Assembly (NCBI GenBank): GCA_039889245.1
Contig: JAZGVH010000002.1
Location: forward strand, 1,364,001-1,428,000
DNA length: 64,000 bases
Origin: Dermatophilaceae bacterium Soc4.6
GTDB lineage: Bacteria > Actinomycetota > Actinomycetes > Actinomycetales > Dermatophilaceae
Reading direction: 5' to 3'
Shown here piece after piece: positions 30,150 to 50,180 of this stretch. The notes below the pieces were generated by a model, which saw only the letters and a list, made by a program, of their open reading frames with translations, searched no databases and had not been told where the DNA came from. The translations under genes were made by a program, and so were the position numbers. Each line of letters starts with the position of its first letter. Position 1 is the first letter of the stretch.

Positions 30150-30959
30150 TCAGGTCAGCGGGTTCACCCCCTGGCCGGCGAGGGCTTGGGTGAGGCGGAC
30201 GCTGTCGCCGGTGGTCTGACAGATGTGGGCGTGGTGCAGGAGCCGGTCGACGGTCGCGGTCGCGAGGGTCTTGGGCATCAGCTCGTCGAACGAGGCCGGG
30301 TGCAGGTTCGAGCTGATCGCGATGGACCGCTTCTCGTACGCGGCATCGACCAGCCGGTACAACCCTTCGGCGGCGTCGTTCGCCACCGGGAGCAGGCCAA
30401 TGTCATCCACCACGACGAGATCTGCTCGCAGGACCCGGGCGATCGCACGGGTGACCGTGTCGTCCGCACGGTGCCGGCGCAGCAGGATCCCGAGGTCCTC
30501 GAGGGTGAACCACGCGACCTTCAGCCCGGCCTCGACGGCTTGCTGGCCGAGGGCCTCGAGCAGGAACGTCTTGCCCGTGCCGGAGGGCCCGCACACGACG
30601 AGGTTCTCCCGCCGGTGGACCCACTCCAAGGTCCGCAGGGCCTGCTGGGTCGGCGCCGGGATCGAGGAGGCCTGCGGGTCCCACACGTCGAACGTTTTCC
30701 CGGTGGGGAACCCGGCGGTGCTGCGGCGGGTCGCGAGGGCTGAGCGTTCCCGGCCGGCGGCTTCCTCACCGAGCAGGGCCCGCAGGACCTCGACCGGTTC
30801 CCACCGTTGGGCTTTCGCGGTCGCGACGACTTCAGGGGCGTGACGGCGGATGTGCGGCAACCGCAGCCGTCGCAGCAGCGTCTCGAGGTCGTCGGGAAGT
30901 GGCGGCGGGGCCGGGACACCGAGCGCCGGGACCGTGGGTGTCGTCGTCGCGCGGCTCAC
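30150..30959 (-). CDS. istB: IstB-like ATPase of IS21
   Basis: This 269-aa AAA+ helper has Walker A GPSGTGKTFLLEAL, Walker B LVVVDDIGLLP, and the IstB start (LETLLRRLRLPHIRRHAPEV). IstB selects target DNA and activates the IstA transposase. The ATG overlaps the istA stop as ATGA, giving coupled translation. The protein is intact. Confidence 0.96.
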   Translation of the reverse strand: MSRATTTPTVPALGVPAPPPLPDDLETLLRRLRLPHIRRHAPEVVATAKAQRWEPVEVLRALLGEEAAGRERSALATRRSTAGFPTGKTFDVWDPQASSIPAPTQQALRTLEWVHRRENLVVCGPSGTGKTFLLEALGQQAVEAGLKVAWFTLEDLGILLRRHRADDTVTRAIARVLRADLVVVDDIGLLPVANDAAEGLYRLVDAAYEKRSIAISSNLHPASFDELMPKTLATATVDRLLHHAHICQTTGDSVRLTQALAGQGVNPLT

Positions 30960-42683: not shown

Positions 42684-42830
42684 CCACGAACCGGGATGGG
42701 GTCTAGCGTCGATTCGTCCAGGTGCCCGGCCGTGTTGGCGGCGAGCTGGTTTGGGCGGTCGGTCGGGTCGCCGCGAAAGGTGACGTCATGCCCAGCCCCA
42801 CCACCCTCCTGCCATTTTCAGCCCGCCACG

Positions 42831-43907
42831 ATGTCAACCGCGCAGCTGGCGGCCGTGTCCTACCTCGCGCGCTACAGCGGGCGCACCCACACCCTTTACG
42901 CGTACCAGCTGAGGGAATGGTTCACCTGGTGCGAGACCCACGCACTCGACCCGCTCGTGGGGATCCAGCGCGCCCACGTCGAGCTGTACATCCGCCAACT
43001 TGGCGAGCGACCACTGATGGACTCCACGATCAACACGATGATGCACGCCGTCCGCGGCTACTTCCGCTTCGCCCACATCGACGGCCTCATCACCTCCGAC
43101 CCCGCCGTCTACGCCCGGCTCCCGAAGGTGCACGAGGACGAGTCCCGCACCCACGGCCTGGACCGGCTCGAGCTCATCCGGTTCCTCCAGGTCGCCCCCA
43201 CCATCACTGTCCACCACGGAGCCCTGGCCTACCTCCTCGGCATCAACGCCCTCCGCGCCTCCGAAGCCGCCGCCGTCCGGATCGAGGACTACGCCGACAC
43301 CCTGCGCGGCTACCGCGTCCTGCACCTCGTCGGCAAGGGCAACAAGCCCGCGACCATGCCGGTCACCGTCCCCGTGCTGCGGGTCCTCGAGGCCTGCCGC
43401 GGACAACGCACCACCGGCCCACTTATCCTGCGTCCCCTCTCAGGTCGGCCCGTCGACCGGCGCGACGTCTACCGGATGGTCACCCGCATCGCGACTGCCG
43501 CCGGCATCCCCCGCCACATCAGCCCCCACTCCCTGCGGCACGCCGCGATCACCAACGCCCTCGACGCCGGCGTCCCCCTCCGCGACGCGCAGATCCTCGC
43601 CCGGCATGCCGACCCCCGCACGACCGAGCACTACGACCGCGCCCGCGGCAACCTCGACCGGCCACGGCGTCCACTTCCTTACCGCCTACGTCGCCGGCGT
43701 CTGACATGGCTCAGGAACCAGCCCCCATTCCAGAAAGAAGGGCTACGCCGATGTCTGTTCATGCCGATCAGCGGAAAGGTTGCGGACACCCCCCATCGTC
43801 TGGTTGACGCTGGCGGAGCGATCACGAAGCGGCGCCCACGTTGCCGGACCCCCGGTCTATGTTGTAGAGGCACAAGGCTGCCGACCTGGCTGTCGTCGTT
43901 GTGCTGA
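42831..43907 (+). CDS. XerC/D-like tyrosine recombinase with frameshifted C-terminus
   Basis: The intact part has a core-binding domain (AVSYLARYSGRTHTLYAYQL) and catalytic motifs NALRASEAAAVR (Arg), HSLRHAAITNALDAG (His-x-x-Arg), LARHADPRTTEHYDRARG (His; Tyr nucleophile). Around 43,660 an extra base shifts the frame. In the other frame the protein would end HGVHFLTAYVAGV at 43,704, the usual end of this family; instead it runs on for about 68 residues. The nucleophile lies before the shift, so activity may remain. It is the only single recombinase inside the hairpin-repeat array. Confidence 0.8.
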   Translation: MSTAQLAAVSYLARYSGRTHTLYAYQLREWFTWCETHALDPLVGIQRAHVELYIRQLGERPLMDSTINTMMHAVRGYFRFAHIDGLITSDPAVYARLPKVHEDESRTHGLDRLELIRFLQVAPTITVHHGALAYLLGINALRASEAAAVRIEDYADTLRGYRVLHLVGKGNKPATMPVTVPVLRVLEACRGQRTTGPLILRPLSGRPVDRRDVYRMVTRIATAAGIPRHISPHSLRHAAITNALDAGVPLRDAQILARHADPRTTEHYDRARGNLDRPRRPLPYRLRRRRLTWLRNQPPFQKEGLRRCLFMPISGKVADTPHRLVDAGGAITKRRPRCRTPGLCCRGTRLPTWLSSLC

Positions 43908-45136: not shown

Positions 45137-45353
45137 CGATCGGGATAGGCGTGTTGCTGATTCAGCGGGGCTGGTCGGGTCTCCCTTCTCCGGCCAGCTG
45201 CTTTCCGGTATTTGCTGGACGGGGCTGGTAGACAGGGCTTTATGTCCCTAACCTCGCCCGTTCACCGAGGTTGAGGCGACACGCGGTCTGAAAACGCGAA
45301 AGTGCCTGTCTCACAACGAGATACTGGACTTGTCTAGGGAACAGTAGGCTCGA

Positions 45354-45920
45354 GTGGAAGGCACTCCGCAGGTGAAGCGTACAACGGCGGCAGCGACGAA
45401 GAAGGCGACCCGGCGCGCGAGTCGGAAGAAGGCTCGAGCCGCGGGCGGGAGCAAGGCCAGCCGGTGGTCGGCGGGGCTGGCGGTGTCCGCGGACGGTACG
45501 GGGGTCGTGGCGCACGCGGGGAACGTCGCGACCCGCCTGATGGCCGACCGGGTCGGTCTGACCGGGGCGCTGTCCACGGCGATGGCGCGGCGGGGATTCA
45601 CCCCGGGACACGACCGCGGGAGGGTCCTGGCCGACGTGGCCGTGCTCATCGCGGGTGGTGGGGAAGCGATCGCGGACATCAACACCCTGCGCCACCAACG
45701 CGACGCCCTCGGGTCGGTCGCGTCGGCCCCGACGGTGTGGCGCACCTTGAAAGGTCTGACCCCGGCTGTCGCGAAGCGGATCGACCAGGCGAGGGCGAAG
45801 GTCCGCGCGCACGTGTGGTCCCAGCTGCCGGGCGGGGTGCCTTCGTCCAAGGTCGCGGACAGCGACCTGGGTGACGTCGTGGTCCTCGACGTCGACGCCA
45901 CGTTGGTCACGGCGCACTCA
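45354..45920 (+). pseudogene. 5' part of the IS1380 transposase gene
   Basis: The fragment runs from a basic N-terminus (TAAATKKATRRASRKKARAA) through NVATRLMADRVGLTGALSTA to GDVVVLDVDATLVTAHS, the motif with the first catalytic Asp. It then stops matching where the inner element begins. Confidence 0.9.
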
Positions 45921-46055
45921 ACTGGTATTGGCACAGGTTGCTAGGCCCCCAAAGGTGTTGCGACCTGCGGCGATGGGGCTGTTGATGGTTCTGCGATGTT
46001 CAAGGCTCGGTCTCGGTATGTAAGGTGACACCTTCGGATACAAACCAGGAAGAAG

Positions 46056-47228
46056 GTGTGTGTGGTCACTGACGGTCTCCGCCTCCTGCGTGGAGGTGCG
46101 CCGACCGCACCGGTCGCGGGGCCGCAGGTCGACCCGGTGGCTTTCCAGGACGCGTGCCTGCGCTCGTTCGAGGCCTCACAGGTGGCTCGGGGTTTCGCGC
46201 AAACGACCATGGACAACGGTGCCGGCGTCCTCGAGCGGTTCCTCGTCTCGTGCGGCCGACCAGCGTGGGAGGTCACCCGTGAGGATGTCGACCGGGTGGT
46301 GGCCGGGCTGGTGGGGCAGGGCCTGTCGGCGGCGACCCGCCGCGGCTACGTCCAAACCTTCAAGGGCTTCCACGCCTACCTGACGGCGCGCAAGTCCAGC
46401 GAGATCGAGGCGGCCTTCGGGATCCGGATTGTCGACCCGGTCGACGAGTTCAACGCCGCCCGGCATGTCGACTCGAGCTCGCCGTCCGCGACGGCACCTC
46501 CGGACCCGCAGCGGATGGAGGAGTTCTTCGACTTCCTCAAGGACCGCGTCGCGGGAGCCCGTAAGTACACGGCCGCCGGCCGCGACTACGCCCTGTTCCG
46601 GACCCTGTACCTCGCGGGGCTGCGAGCCGAGGAGACGGCGTCGTTGGACCGCGCCGACGTGCACTTCGGCCGCGGGCCCTTCGGGAAGATCCATGTCCGC
46701 TTCGGCAAGGGCGCCAAGACCTCCGGCCCGCGGCCACGCTGGGTTCCGATGCTGGACGGGCTCGACCTCATCCTCGGCTGGTATCTGCAGGACATCGCCC
46801 CTCGTCTGGGCGATGGGCCGGCACTGTTCTGCGACGAGGGGGGCGGGCGGATCCACCGCGGCACGATCCGCAACCGTCTGGCCCACCTGCTGGACCTGGA
46901 GCAGCAAGCCCGCGGTGACGCCCGCCCAGGCGCACCGGCCCTCGTGCGGTTCAGCCCCCACACCCTGCGTCACGCCTGCGCCACGCGCAACTACGAGCGG
47001 GGCGTCGACCTCGTCGCGATCCAGCAGATGCTCGGGCACTGGCACGTCGGGACGACGATGCGTTACGTCACTCCCTCGGCCACGTTCATCGAGGACGCCT
47101 ACCGTCGCGCGATCTCGGGCACACTGTCGGAGCTGACCGGCCAGGACGACGCTGCCCAGCACGTTTCGGCTGTGGAAGGGTCTGGGCCGGGAAGGTCTGG
47201 GCTGGAAGGGGATCCGGATGCACATTAG
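46056..47228 (+). CDS. Tyrosine recombinase (active-site complete)
   Basis: This protein of about 390 aa has a core-binding domain (TMDNGAGVLERFLVSCGRPA) and a catalytic domain with YLAGLRAEETASLDR (Arg), HTLRHACATRNYERG (His-x-x-Arg), MLGHWHVGTTMRYV (His; Tyr). It is the presumed catalytic subunit of the element. The start is GTG at 46,056 or 46,062, downstream of AGGAAGAAGG. Its end overlaps the next gene by 11 bp. Confidence 0.9.
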   Translation: MCVVTDGLRLLRGGAPTAPVAGPQVDPVAFQDACLRSFEASQVARGFAQTTMDNGAGVLERFLVSCGRPAWEVTREDVDRVVAGLVGQGLSAATRRGYVQTFKGFHAYLTARKSSEIEAAFGIRIVDPVDEFNAARHVDSSSPSATAPPDPQRMEEFFDFLKDRVAGARKYTAAGRDYALFRTLYLAGLRAEETASLDRADVHFGRGPFGKIHVRFGKGAKTSGPRPRWVPMLDGLDLILGWYLQDIAPRLGDGPALFCDEGGGRIHRGTIRNRLAHLLDLEQQARGDARPGAPALVRFSPHTLRHACATRNYERGVDLVAIQQMLGHWHVGTTMRYVTPSATFIEDAYRRAISGTLSELTGQDDAAQHVSAVEGSGPGRSGLEGDPDAH

Positions 47229-47532
47229 GTGGCGGCTGCGGATGGCCGCGGCGCAGCGGGAGGTCTGGACCGGGGCGCAGCTTCGGCGGCTGCTGGCGGA
47301 GCGTGCCGGGCTGCACCTGTCCGCGGCGTCGGTCTCCGCGTTGTTCAGCAAGCAGCCCAGCCAGGTCAAGCTCGAGACCCTGGCGGCGCTGTGCACGGCG
47401 CTGGAGTGCACCCCCAACGACCTGATCGAGGTCGACACCACCCCCGTCGCCCAGGCGCCGGCGGCCCCGAAACCTGCCTCGAAGAAAGCCGAACCGAAAG
47501 TCGCCCGCGGCCGGTCCATGCCGCCGCTATGA
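47218..47532 (+). CDS. XRE/Cro-type helix-turn-helix regulator
   Basis: The 104-aa protein has a Cro/C1-type HTH: LRRLLAERAGLHLSAASVSA, KLETLAALCTALECTPNDLI, then a Pro/Ala/Lys-rich tail. It is held between two recombinase genes by overlaps on both sides (11 bp and ATGA), so it is likely translated with them and may set their level or aid synapsis. Confidence 0.85.
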   Translation: MHIRWRLRMAAAQREVWTGAQLRRLLAERAGLHLSAASVSALFSKQPSQVKLETLAALCTALECTPNDLIEVDTTPVAQAPAAPKPASKKAEPKVARGRSMPPL

Positions 47533-49007
47533 GCAGGTACCGCACCTGTGCGGACTGTCCCGCGCCGGTGAAGCTCCGGCACCGGATCCGGTGCCACACC
47601 TGCCACCGCCGCACCGAACGCGCCGCCCTCAAACGAGAGTGCGTGACCTGTGGACGGGCACGCCACCTAGGCGAGGGCGACCGCTGCGCCGGGTGCCTGC
47701 GCGCCGCCCGCCCACCCCGGCCACCCAAGACCAGCGTCTGCCGTCGCTGCGGGCAGCAGCGACGCAACGTCGGTCACGGACTGTGTAACCGGTGCGCCCA
47801 AGCCGACCCCGACCGGCCCTTCCGCTACGCCGCGTCGATGGCGACCCGACTGGAAACCCGGCTCGCGGCCGTGCCGCCATGGTGGCCCTCGTTGGCCGTC
47901 TTCGCGGCGGCCCGGTTCCACCCCGGTGGGGCCGTCACGGTCCTGCGTGAGACCGGGCGACTACTGCTCGCCGACCCGGCCCTCGGCCCGCACCAGCTGA
48001 TGAACCTGGCCCCACCGCAGCTGAGCTCGACGACCGTCAGGGTGCTGACCGCGTACTTCACCGACCGCGGGCTGGCCCTACCGCCCGATGCCCCGCAGCA
48101 GCGTGCGGCAGCCCGACGGGCCCAGCACCTCGCGGACATCGACGTCCCCCTGCGCGAGGCCGTCGCCGCGTTTAACGACACTCAGATGAACGAGCAGGAC
48201 CGGCGCCGCCGCACCGGGCGGCACACTCTGAGCGACGTCACCCTCGAGACCCGGCTGCGGATCGTCAAAGCCCTCGCCCGCCACCTGCTGCGGACCCGCA
48301 CTGTGACCGGCTGGGCCGAGGTCACCACGCAAGACCTCGAGTCCTTCCTCGCCCGCACGCCCGCTGCGCGACACCAACAGACCTACGTCCTGCGCCGGTT
48401 CTTCACCTGGGCCAAGGCCCACAAGATCGTCCTGACCGACGCCACTCGACCGCTGGCCCTCGGAGCGCAACCCGCGTTCACCGGCACCGTCCTCGAGGTC
48501 GGAACCCAACGAGCACTGTTCGCCCGCTGGACCCTCGAAACGACCCCACCCAGCGAACGTCTCGTCGGGCTCCTCGCCCTGCTGCACGCGGCGTCCAACG
48601 CGGAGATCCGTCTCCTAACCCTCACCGACATCGACCACACCCAGCGCACCGTGACACTGCTGCGTCGACCGTTCCCCACCCCGCTCGACCCGCCCACCTG
48701 GGCCGCACTGCAGGCCTGCCTCACCGAGCGAGAGGCCACCGCCACCCTCAACCCCCACGTCATCGTCACCCGGATCACCGCCAGCCGCGACACCCCCGCC
48801 GCCAGCAGCTACCTGACCCGCCTCCTGTCCCAAGCCGGGACCACCCCCGCCGCCTGCCGACAAACCCGGCTCACCGAACTCGTCAACGACCTCGACCCCA
48901 AGCTCACCGCAGCCGCCCTCGGCATGAACGGCACCGGCATCGCCCGATACGCCGCCGACAACGTCGCCCGCGACCGCCTCCACCGCCATACCACCAACCC
49001 GGCTTGA
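47529..49007 (+). CDS. Zinc-ribbon protein with degenerate tyrosine-recombinase domain
   Basis: This protein of about 492 aa starts with three CxxC-type pairs (YRTCADCPAP, RIRCHTCHRR, CVTCGRARHL) and a fourth group (VCRRCGQQRR). The C-terminal half follows the recombinase fold: RRFFTWAKAHKIVLTDATRP, then LLHAASNAEIRLLTLTDID where the catalytic Arg is expected, and LTAAALGMNGTGIARYAADN where LGH...T..RY is expected. Arg and His appear lost, while a Tyr remains. It is probably a DNA-binding partner rather than an enzyme, comparable in place to TnpB. Confidence 0.7.
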   Translation: MSRYRTCADCPAPVKLRHRIRCHTCHRRTERAALKRECVTCGRARHLGEGDRCAGCLRAARPPRPPKTSVCRRCGQQRRNVGHGLCNRCAQADPDRPFRYAASMATRLETRLAAVPPWWPSLAVFAAARFHPGGAVTVLRETGRLLLADPALGPHQLMNLAPPQLSSTTVRVLTAYFTDRGLALPPDAPQQRAAARRAQHLADIDVPLREAVAAFNDTQMNEQDRRRRTGRHTLSDVTLETRLRIVKALARHLLRTRTVTGWAEVTTQDLESFLARTPAARHQQTYVLRRFFTWAKAHKIVLTDATRPLALGAQPAFTGTVLEVGTQRALFARWTLETTPPSERLVGLLALLHAASNAEIRLLTLTDIDHTQRTVTLLRRPFPTPLDPPTWAALQACLTEREATATLNPHVIVTRITASRDTPAASSYLTRLLSQAGTTPAACRQTRLTELVNDLDPKLTAAALGMNGTGIARYAADNVARDRLHRHTTNPA

Positions 49008-49075
49008 CCCATCGCGGCGAACCCGGGCACTGCAGGCAGCACCTTGCACACCTTGGAACGAACGTGGGCGAGTTG

Positions 49076-49999
49076 GAGAAGGAAGGAGCGACCTCCACGT
49101 TCAAGCGAGGGTTCGGCTACCACCCGATCAGTGTCTGGTGCGACAACACCCAGGAGTCGCTGGCGTTGATGCTGCGCGAGGGCAGGGCCGGCTCGAACAC
49201 CGTCGCGGATCACGTCGCGGTGTTGACCACGGCCATCGCGCAGGTCCCTGCGGCCCATCGGAAGAAGCTGCTGATCCGCGCCGATGGTGCCGGCGCGTCC
49301 CACGGGCTGCTCGAGTGGTTGACCGAGCTGAACGCGAAACGCGGTCGCACGGTGGAGTACTCGGTCGGGTTCGCCGTCACCGACAAGGTCCGCACCGCCA
49401 TCGGACAGGTCCCCGAGGCTGCGTGGGCGCCCGCGGTCGACCCTGAGGGCGAGGCCCGACTCAACGGTGACGTGGTGGAGATCACCGGGATGCTCGACCT
49501 GACGAAGTGGCCCGATGGGATGCGGGTCATCATCCGCCGTGAGCACCCCCACCCCGGCGCCGCGCTGTCGCTGTTCGAGGAGGAGAACGGGTGGCGCTAT
49601 CAAGCCGTTGCTTCCAATACCCCTCTCGCTGCGGGCGGTCAAGTGTCGTTCCTCGAGGCCCGTCATCGGGCGCACGCCCGGATCGAGACTCGGATCCGGC
49701 ACGCCAAGGACTGCGGCATCGGCCGGTTCCCCTCCCGCGAGTTCGCGATCAACCAGGCCTGGCTCCTCGCGACCTCGATCGCGGCTGACCTCATCGCGTG
49801 GCTACGGCTGCTCGCCCTGCCCCCGACCCTGAAGGCGTGCGAGCCGAAAGCGTTGCGGTACCGGCTGCTGCACGTCCCCGCCCGGCTGACCCACGGCGCC
49901 CGCCAACGCCGCCTGCGGTTCCCCGCGACCTGGCCCTGGGCCCACGACGTCCTCGCCGTCTTCACCGCCCTCGGCCGCCTCACACCGCTGCGGACCTGA
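49076..49999 (+). pseudogene. 3' part of the IS1380 transposase gene
   Basis: The fragment resumes at EKEGATSTFKRGFGYHPISV and contains LLIRADGAGASHGLLEWLTE (second Asp region), HRAHARIETRIRHAKDCGIG (Glu region) and the normal C-terminus (LRFPATWPWAHDVLAVFTAL). Both halves are undamaged apart from the insertion. Confidence 0.9.
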
Positions 50000-50180
50000 C
50001 GCCCGGACCTCACCCGTCCGCCCACGAGCAAGCACCACCCGGAGACCCGCCCCGCAGCGCCACCGCGGCACACCACCACGCCCGAAACCCGGAACCGGGC
50101 ATCAACGCCAGAAGCCATCACCCGAGGACCCCGGTGAATTACCGAGGCTAAGTGCCGAGTCGTCCTATGCCCTGCGGCCG

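Follow-up and report, generated by a model that had tools for sequence, protein, structure and literature searches.

A probable Tsy-like transposon whose main target is istB, found inside an IS1380 transposase gene

The window analysed here is a stretch of 64,000 nucleotides from Dermatophilaceae bacterium Soc4.6 (assembly GCA_039889245.1, contig JAZGVH010000002.1, positions 1,364,001 to 1,428,000 of the forward strand), and positions are counted from its first letter. It contains an insertion sequence (IS) of the IS1380 family, the transposase gene of which is split by a three-gene tyrosine-recombinase element that resembles the published transposon Tsy. The features of the locus are listed below with the evidence for each; HTH, HMM and aa stand for helix-turn-helix, hidden Markov model and amino acids, respectively.

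45248..45251, no strand, left copy of the CTAA target duplication of IS1380 (sequence)
45252..50147, + strand, IS1380-family insertion sequence carrying the element (terminal inverted repeats, CTAA on both sides, transposase HMM matches)
45354..45919, + strand, 5' part of the IS1380 transposase gene (NF033539 profile 2-144), ending ...LVTAHS inside a Ser codon (TC|G)
45920..49074, + strand, inserted Tsy-like element, 3,155 bp (ends shared by the family, borders of near-identical copies in different locations, empty site of IS1380 relatives)
45920..46055, + strand, left-end region, 136 bp ahead of gene 1, with a terminal motif (45920-45942, AACTGG..GGCACAGGTT) that has diverged from that of the family
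46056..47228, + strand, gene 1, tyrosine recombinase of 390 aa (Pfam Phage_integrase, 1.9e-19)
47218..47532, + strand, gene 2, small XRE/Cro-type HTH protein of 104 aa (Pfam HTH_26, 1.1e-10)
47529..49007, + strand, gene 3, TnsF-like protein of 492 aa (six CxxC pairs at residues 7-89, then a tyrosine-recombinase fold at about 203-478)
49008..49074, + strand, right-end region, 67 bp, with a terminal arm at about 49053-49074 (nhmmer right-end profile, 16.0 bits) and without a passenger gene
49075..49999, + strand, 3' part of the IS1380 transposase gene, EKEGATST... (NF033539 profile 147-419), the frame resuming at 49076
50148..50151, + or - not assigned, right copy of the CTAA target duplication of IS1380 (sequence)

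The IS1380 copy has matching terminal inverted repeats at 45252 and 50147, and both 45248-45251 and 50148-50151 read CTAA, showing that its target duplication is preserved, as claimed in an earlier note on this DNA. The left and right halves of its transposase match the NF033539 transpos_IS1380 profile at positions 2-144 (6.5e-19) and 147-419 (2e-57), respectively, and also match Pfam DDE_Tnp_1_4. Removal of 45920-49074 from the window leaves exactly CACTCGGAGAAGG, which is the empty-site DNA of the IS1380 relatives L127, L128 and L139 (L numbers denote the loci compared). A motif pattern finds the uninterrupted site in 15 of the 19 IS1380 relatives fetched; it misses L124-L126, in which a tblastn alignment spans both transposase halves, and L135 is the one relative neither matched by the motif nor aligned further. 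An assembly artefact is ruled out by the exact empty site together with the open frames of both transposase halves. The HMM-matched halves and the empty site in relatives confirm that a tyrosine-recombinase element lies inside the IS1380 transposase gene, and no target duplication surrounds this element in the window. The earlier note had also proposed that excision restores IS1380, and the join indeed equals the empty site; the borders are 45920-49074, however, and the 45921-49075 of that note is one base off, giving joined DNA that differs by one base and encodes the same protein.

Genes 1 and 2 overlap by 11 bp and genes 2 and 3 by 4 bp. Gene 1 has the catalytic set Arg190, Lys218, His302, Arg305, His328 and Tyr337, and these columns are invariant in all 30 aligned sequences including that of the window; its identity to six plasmid relatives is 58-66%. 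Gene 2 is the most conserved of the three, with 64-73% identity to eight plasmid relatives and about 60-80% in most loci, and gene 3 is 38-44% identical to eight plasmid relatives. An AlphaFold (AF2) model of gene 3 has a mean predicted local distance difference test score (pLDDT) of 87.9 and a predicted template modelling score (pTM) of 0.45, and the domain packing of the model is uncertain because of this pTM. Foldseek and VIA-align match residues from about 203 to 491 to XerA, XerH, the Tn1549 integrase and Cre, with Z 16.2 and a root-mean-square deviation (rmsd) of 6.1 Å over 272 aligned residues for XerH, and Z 15.6 and 6.1 Å over 254 for the Tn1549 integrase. A profile-profile comparison of genes 1 and 3 is weak (probability 5.6), and the fold search was needed to see the recombinase fold of gene 3. 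The Pfam matches and translations bear out the gene content first described for the element, namely a complete recombinase, an XRE regulator and a zinc-ribbon protein with a recombinase domain.

A tblastn search with gene 3 finds 47 plasmid records, all actinobacterial by organism name, and among 297 genomes of the same order gene 3 is found at E<=1e-10 in two, its own genome and one other. A gene-1 alignment scan of a collection holding one genome for each of 84,980 species finds 105 relatives, and the analysis continued with the best 80. Altogether 91 loci were examined (the window, L009 and L011-L099), and the search for the same three-gene order, as proposed in the earlier note, shows that the order recurs: all three genes are found by tblastn in 85 of the 91 loci, and several of the remaining six are truncated or run off the contig. 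One of the six, L099, is a distant relative from viral-contig scans with a third gene of the same kind (22% identity over 137 residues); no relative of gene 2 was found in these scans. The relatives are mostly in soil bacteria. The contigs of L039, L048, L061, L064 and L070 are hardly longer than the element, as expected of a collapsed multi-copy repeat, and gene 1 of L092 is interrupted by about 2.4 kb of DNA close to its catalytic LGH motif (L092:6928-9292).

Both ends were located in 67 loci and in the window, and the elements measure 2,491-4,211 bp. The left ends approximate AWCTGGGGCTGGCACWTGTTCG and the right ends TTCGCNCGAACATGTGCGCTTT in most loci, and in the relatives 136-313 bp separate the left end from the point where the gene-1 alignment begins. 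Three near-identical pairs lie at different sites (L050/L051, 100%; L065/L067, 100%; L069/L071, 99.97%), and since the two members of each pair agree up to these points and then differ, they fix the borders of the family. The end profiles were derived from these same loci, with 61 examples of the left end and 30 of the right, and the left border of the window copy was placed by hand.

The distance from the end of the gene-3 match to the right end exceeds 300 bp in 33 of the 68 complete elements, and 30 of these 33 are in Streptomycetaceae, judged by record title. The gap of L090 is the end of gene 3 itself and that of L060 has no long open reading frame (ORF), so that, with these two discounted, a passenger gene is likely in about 31 of the 68. 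Ten representative passenger ORFs chosen by eye were scanned against Pfam: three have matches above the cut-off (Barstar, 1e-12; GNAT acetyltransferase; DUF6228) and seven have none. An eleventh, from L054, matches the HinT model at 3.1e-19, which is below the cut-off of that model. The window copy has no passenger gene. Examples are:

L042:9014-9394, L012:6523-7053, L035:9065-9526 and L054:3702-4109, passenger ORFs between gene 3 and the right end

The position of the catalytic residues in gene 3 was compared in an alignment of 65 sequences, window included, the equivalences being judged by eye from two consensus sequences. None of the 65 has Arg at the Arg I position, which is occupied by Ser in 51 and by Thr in 10; nor does any have His at the His II position (Arg or Lys in 55) or at the His III position (Met in 59). 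Since Arg I and both His residues are missing across the alignment, the predicted catalytic loss is a trait of the family and not a recent decay of the window copy, and simple decay of gene 3 is ruled out because the change is common to the whole family. The description of a decayed recombinase domain in the earlier note is therefore right as to catalysis and does not hold as to recent decay of this copy.

The target class was assigned in 79 of the 91 loci; the other 12 lack a located end or have less than 60 bp of flank. The targets are istB, the AAA+ helper gene of IS21, in 65 loci, IS256-type transposase genes in six, PLD-like genes in three and IS1380 in one (the window), followed by one rve-type gene, one DUF2637 gene, one AAA_30 gene and one unidentified gene (L022). 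The 79 loci have 73 distinct flanks, 59 of them in istB, and L082 and L083, among the 12 unclassified loci, also match istB. The target genes of representative loci were identified by Pfam; the PLD-like label comes from one representative, L078, at 6.7e-5, below the Pfam cut-off, and the rve label from a weak match in L090 (0.004). The left-end profile scores of 14.6 bits in L088 and 12.1 bits in L090 make the targets of these two loci less sure. Because these same loci had supplied the sequences for the istB profiles (the C-part profile included two PLD-like seeds, and the match of L074 was overruled by hand), the right flanks were checked independently with Pfam: a right end is present in 57 istB loci, 54 of which yielded a fragment of at least 30 residues, and 45 of these 54 match PF01695 at E<=0.001. 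In istB, 50 of the 55 readable right flanks place the junction exactly four residues beyond the sensor-motif [S/T]N. The element is antisense to istB and sense in IS256 and IS1380. The istB share and the fixed position of the istB junction rule out random insertion. Thus, the mapping of insertion sites proposed in the earlier note gives a strongly non-random result, and the outcome that it had named as contrary, a normal second recombinase with random targets, is absent, Arg I being found in 0 of 65 gene 3 sequences. IS1380 is not the characteristic home of the element, being a one-off among the fetched loci.

The target DNA in IS1380 is CACTC|GGAGAAGG. A weight matrix from 47 istB sites, covering -8 to +8 and scored on both strands, places the true IS1380 site at rank 1 of 2,770 positions, and the -10 to +10 and -6 to +7 matrices also rank it first. 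When each istB site is left out in turn, the short matrix puts 28 of the 47 in first place and the long one 46, the latter aided by istB homology. Since a motif trained on istB puts the IS1380 site first, the window copy probably landed on an istB look-alike within IS1380. On the gene-1 tree (90 rows, all but L099, 79 of them target-labelled), the target class changes 8 times against a minimum of 7, and none of 200 shuffles is as low, a result helped by the near-copies in the tree. L077 breaks a perfect correspondence of tree and target, as it is in istB and 97-98% identical to elements in the PLD-like gene; L074 and L077, both from Rhodococcus koreensis DSM 44498, are 98.4% identical and lie in the PLD-like gene and istB, respectively. 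Therefore, one element type can use both targets.

The Tsy transposon has been described from Zoogloea sp. LCSB751 (ZooTsy; Faure et al. 2023, PMC10293859) as carrying, in order, genes for a tyrosine recombinase (YRec), an HTH protein and TnsF, plus one for a GIY-YIG nuclease, missing from some relatives, and as inserting at the Walker B codons of comM. According to that description, transposition was reconstituted in E. coli, circular intermediates were observed, loss of YRec, HTH or TnsF impaired transposition, and 135 bp on one side and 20 bp on the other, with a 12 bp flank, are sufficient as ends (PMC10293859). Set beside this account, the window element has the same YRec-HTH-TnsF-like order on one strand; its gene 3 combines N-terminal predicted zinc fingers with a core-binding and catalytic recombinase fold; its left-end region is 136 bp as against 135 bp, and the right end is short in both. 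The targets are in both cases conserved codons of an AAA+ ATPase gene, istB in the family and comM in Tsy, and cargo follows the core genes in some copies. In contrast, the family uses istB and other IS genes instead of comM (istB 65, IS256 6, others 8 of 79) and is found mainly in Actinomycetota, the window element has no GIY-YIG gene, and gene 3 lacks Arg I and both His residues whereas the TnsF of ZooTsy is reported to be active. Since the gene order, the domain plan of gene 3 and the left-end length match while the target and the catalytic residues differ, the element, which probably works like Tsy, is Tsy-like and is not filed as Tsy.

Taken together, these results make it likely that the element is a Tsy-like transposon whose main target is istB of IS21 and whose present copy sits in IS1380 DNA resembling istB. 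It seems to be a transposon with other transposons as its home. The arrangement had been called unlike Tn554 or RIT in the earlier note, which is correct in that there is one catalytic recombinase with an HTH gene, but the gene order is already published for Tsy (PMC10293859). What is new is a Tsy-like group specialised on insertion-sequence genes; a literature search made mostly on titles and the beginnings of abstracts, without PMC12504007 and PMC6723655, found no report of a tyrosine-recombinase element targeting istB.

From the sequence comparisons we infer a circular intermediate, a role for each protein and any present activity. Gene 1 would cut and join the element ends, probably via a circular intermediate. 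Gene 3, with its zinc ribbon and catalytically stripped recombinase fold, would read the target DNA, and gene 2 may help at the ends or act as a regulator. The target would be a short stretch of istB directly following the codons for the sensor motif [S/T]N, where conservation of the protein would keep the DNA recognisable, and the present copy would have entered the IS1380 transposase gene through the resemblance of its target DNA to the istB site.

Several observations weigh against this reading. No other fetched relative lies inside IS1380. The left-end profile has no match in the window copy and the right-end profile reaches only 16.0 bits, indicating that the ends have diverged, and the copy may be inactive with such end motifs. 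A matrix of +-25 bp drops the IS1380 site to rank 26 of 2,702. Among the 11 of 14 non-istB loci that were scored, the -8 to +8 matrix gives ranks of 17, 45 and 311 for the three scored IS256 sites, 4, 8 and 13 for the PLD-like sites and 37-203 for the remaining four loci; with the +-25 bp matrix two IS256 sites reach ranks 3 and 4. Since sites other than those in IS1380 and istB are not ranked first by the short matrix, other clades seem to have altered specificity. The element of L090 is flanked on either side by the five bases GACTG, so insertion without duplication might fail in some cases. The TnsF of ZooTsy is reported to be active, and its catalytic activity is described as essential (PMC10293859); the protein roles may thus be unlike those in ZooTsy, as gene 3 lacks the residues for TnsF catalysis.

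Another route to the present locus would be passive arrival, with the element already inside IS1380 and moved by IS1380 transposition in trans. The IS1380 ends and the CTAA duplication are intact around the whole composite, as this route requires. The order of the two insertion events cannot be read from one copy, however, and a DNA search of the own genome yields short pieces of 76-87% identity but no second composite; moreover, three of the five other full-length IS1380 transposases of this genome were compared, and these are only 26-27% identical to the right half. Passive arrival is judged rather unlikely.

With Arg I and both His residues missing from gene 3 and the target class tracking the gene-1 tree, it is also conceivable that gene 3 is a dead remnant and that gene 1 alone picks the site. 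The constraint on gene 3 makes this improbable: among the 65 sequences Arg II is retained without exception, the Tyr equivalent is retained in 63 and each of the twelve cysteines in 60-65, and in 65 loci the reading frame stays open across more than 440 aligned residues.

A loosely inserting recombinase, the copies of which survive only in dispensable genes, with IS genes as a safe place, has in its favour the general dispensability of IS genes and the 6 of 79 targets not recognised as transposition genes. Nevertheless, chance and selection do not put 50 of 55 istB insertions at one codon in one orientation, nor do they explain an IS1380 site at the first motif rank of 2,770, and we give this explanation little credence.

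The partial resemblances of the Tsy-like element to other systems can be compared on published descriptions. The TnsF of the Tn7-like transposon Tn6022 is described as a target selector in an AAA+ gene with zinc fingers and an inactivated recombinase domain (PMC10293859), features that gene 3 shares; it differs in having a Tn7-type transposase, TnsC and TniQ as partners and in the tandem core-binding domains described for it. Tn554-like transposons of Actinobacteria are described with two recombinases, one of them very long, and often TnpC (PMC3414803); tyrosine recombinases and copies that suggest dedicated sites are common to both, but Tn554 has two recombinases with catalytic motifs (TnpA and TnpB) plus TnpC, whereas the element has one catalytic recombinase and an HTH_26 protein as gene 2. 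RIT elements, of about 3.5 kb, have three overlapping genes, and one RIT lies inside a transposase gene (PMC3414803), so that size, overlaps and a case in a transposase gene are similar; their genes all encode tyrosine recombinases with possible catalytic motifs, as against one catalytic enzyme in the element. SEs and GInts have a recombinase-like partner without a catalytic motif (Tfp and GinC, respectively; PMC10214605), comparable to gene 3, and are described with four core genes including two catalytic recombinases, as against three genes and one. The 6-bp footprint of SEs was also rejected, as elements at different sites have the same ends and joining the flanks restores the IS1380 empty site seen in relatives. 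Membership in the Tn554, RIT or SE/GInt groups, which the same enzyme class, dedicated targets and non-catalytic partners such as Tfp and GinC might suggest, can be practically discounted, since the element has a single catalytic recombinase where those groups have two or three, its gene 2 encodes an HTH protein, and there is no 6-bp footprint.

The own genome also carries a Tn554-like element of about 3.97 kb, in which genes for two recombinases (393 and 731 aa) are accompanied by a third, small gene resembling TnpC. Its copies L120-L122 (G000 C2:4488500-4494500, 4535000-4541000 and 4181500-4187500) are 99.9-100% identical, and each splits istB near Pfam profile position 101, in the Walker A region by motif, making it a second, different element type that uses istB. 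More distant trios of genes are found in Bacillota plasmids (L144 and L145), where they adjoin a JAB-domain gene fragment, identified as RadC by Pfam in L145; the record of L144 has a predicted tet(L) gene downstream. A sister trio in Streptomyces, L146, adjoins an AAA_22 ATPase gene and has a TniQ gene close by, and L147-L149 are further distant trios in other Actinomycetota. Each of these groups may have its own target. Two other features of the window are as follows.

42804-43907, separate tyrosine recombinase gene (Phage_integrase, 4e-19), 1.3 kb before IS1380
about 30186-30878, - strand, full-length istB match, profile 2-234

These observations lead to a broader and tentative hypothesis, for which we would claim somewhat less than an even chance, that the Tsy-like lineage is a dedicated parasite of insertion sequences, in which a non-catalytic recombinase fold reads istB codons, can be retargeted (IS256, PLD-like, IS1380) and silences the host transposon, with single passenger genes in Streptomyces that include a barstar homologue. 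A degenerate recombinase kept throughout the family suggests that recognition and catalysis are split between two proteins, and related elements with differing targets (istB, IS256, PLD-like and IS1380) make DNA choice of the TnsF type directly testable. The family would be a mobile element with other mobile elements as its habitat, and a braking effect on IS21 is plausible.

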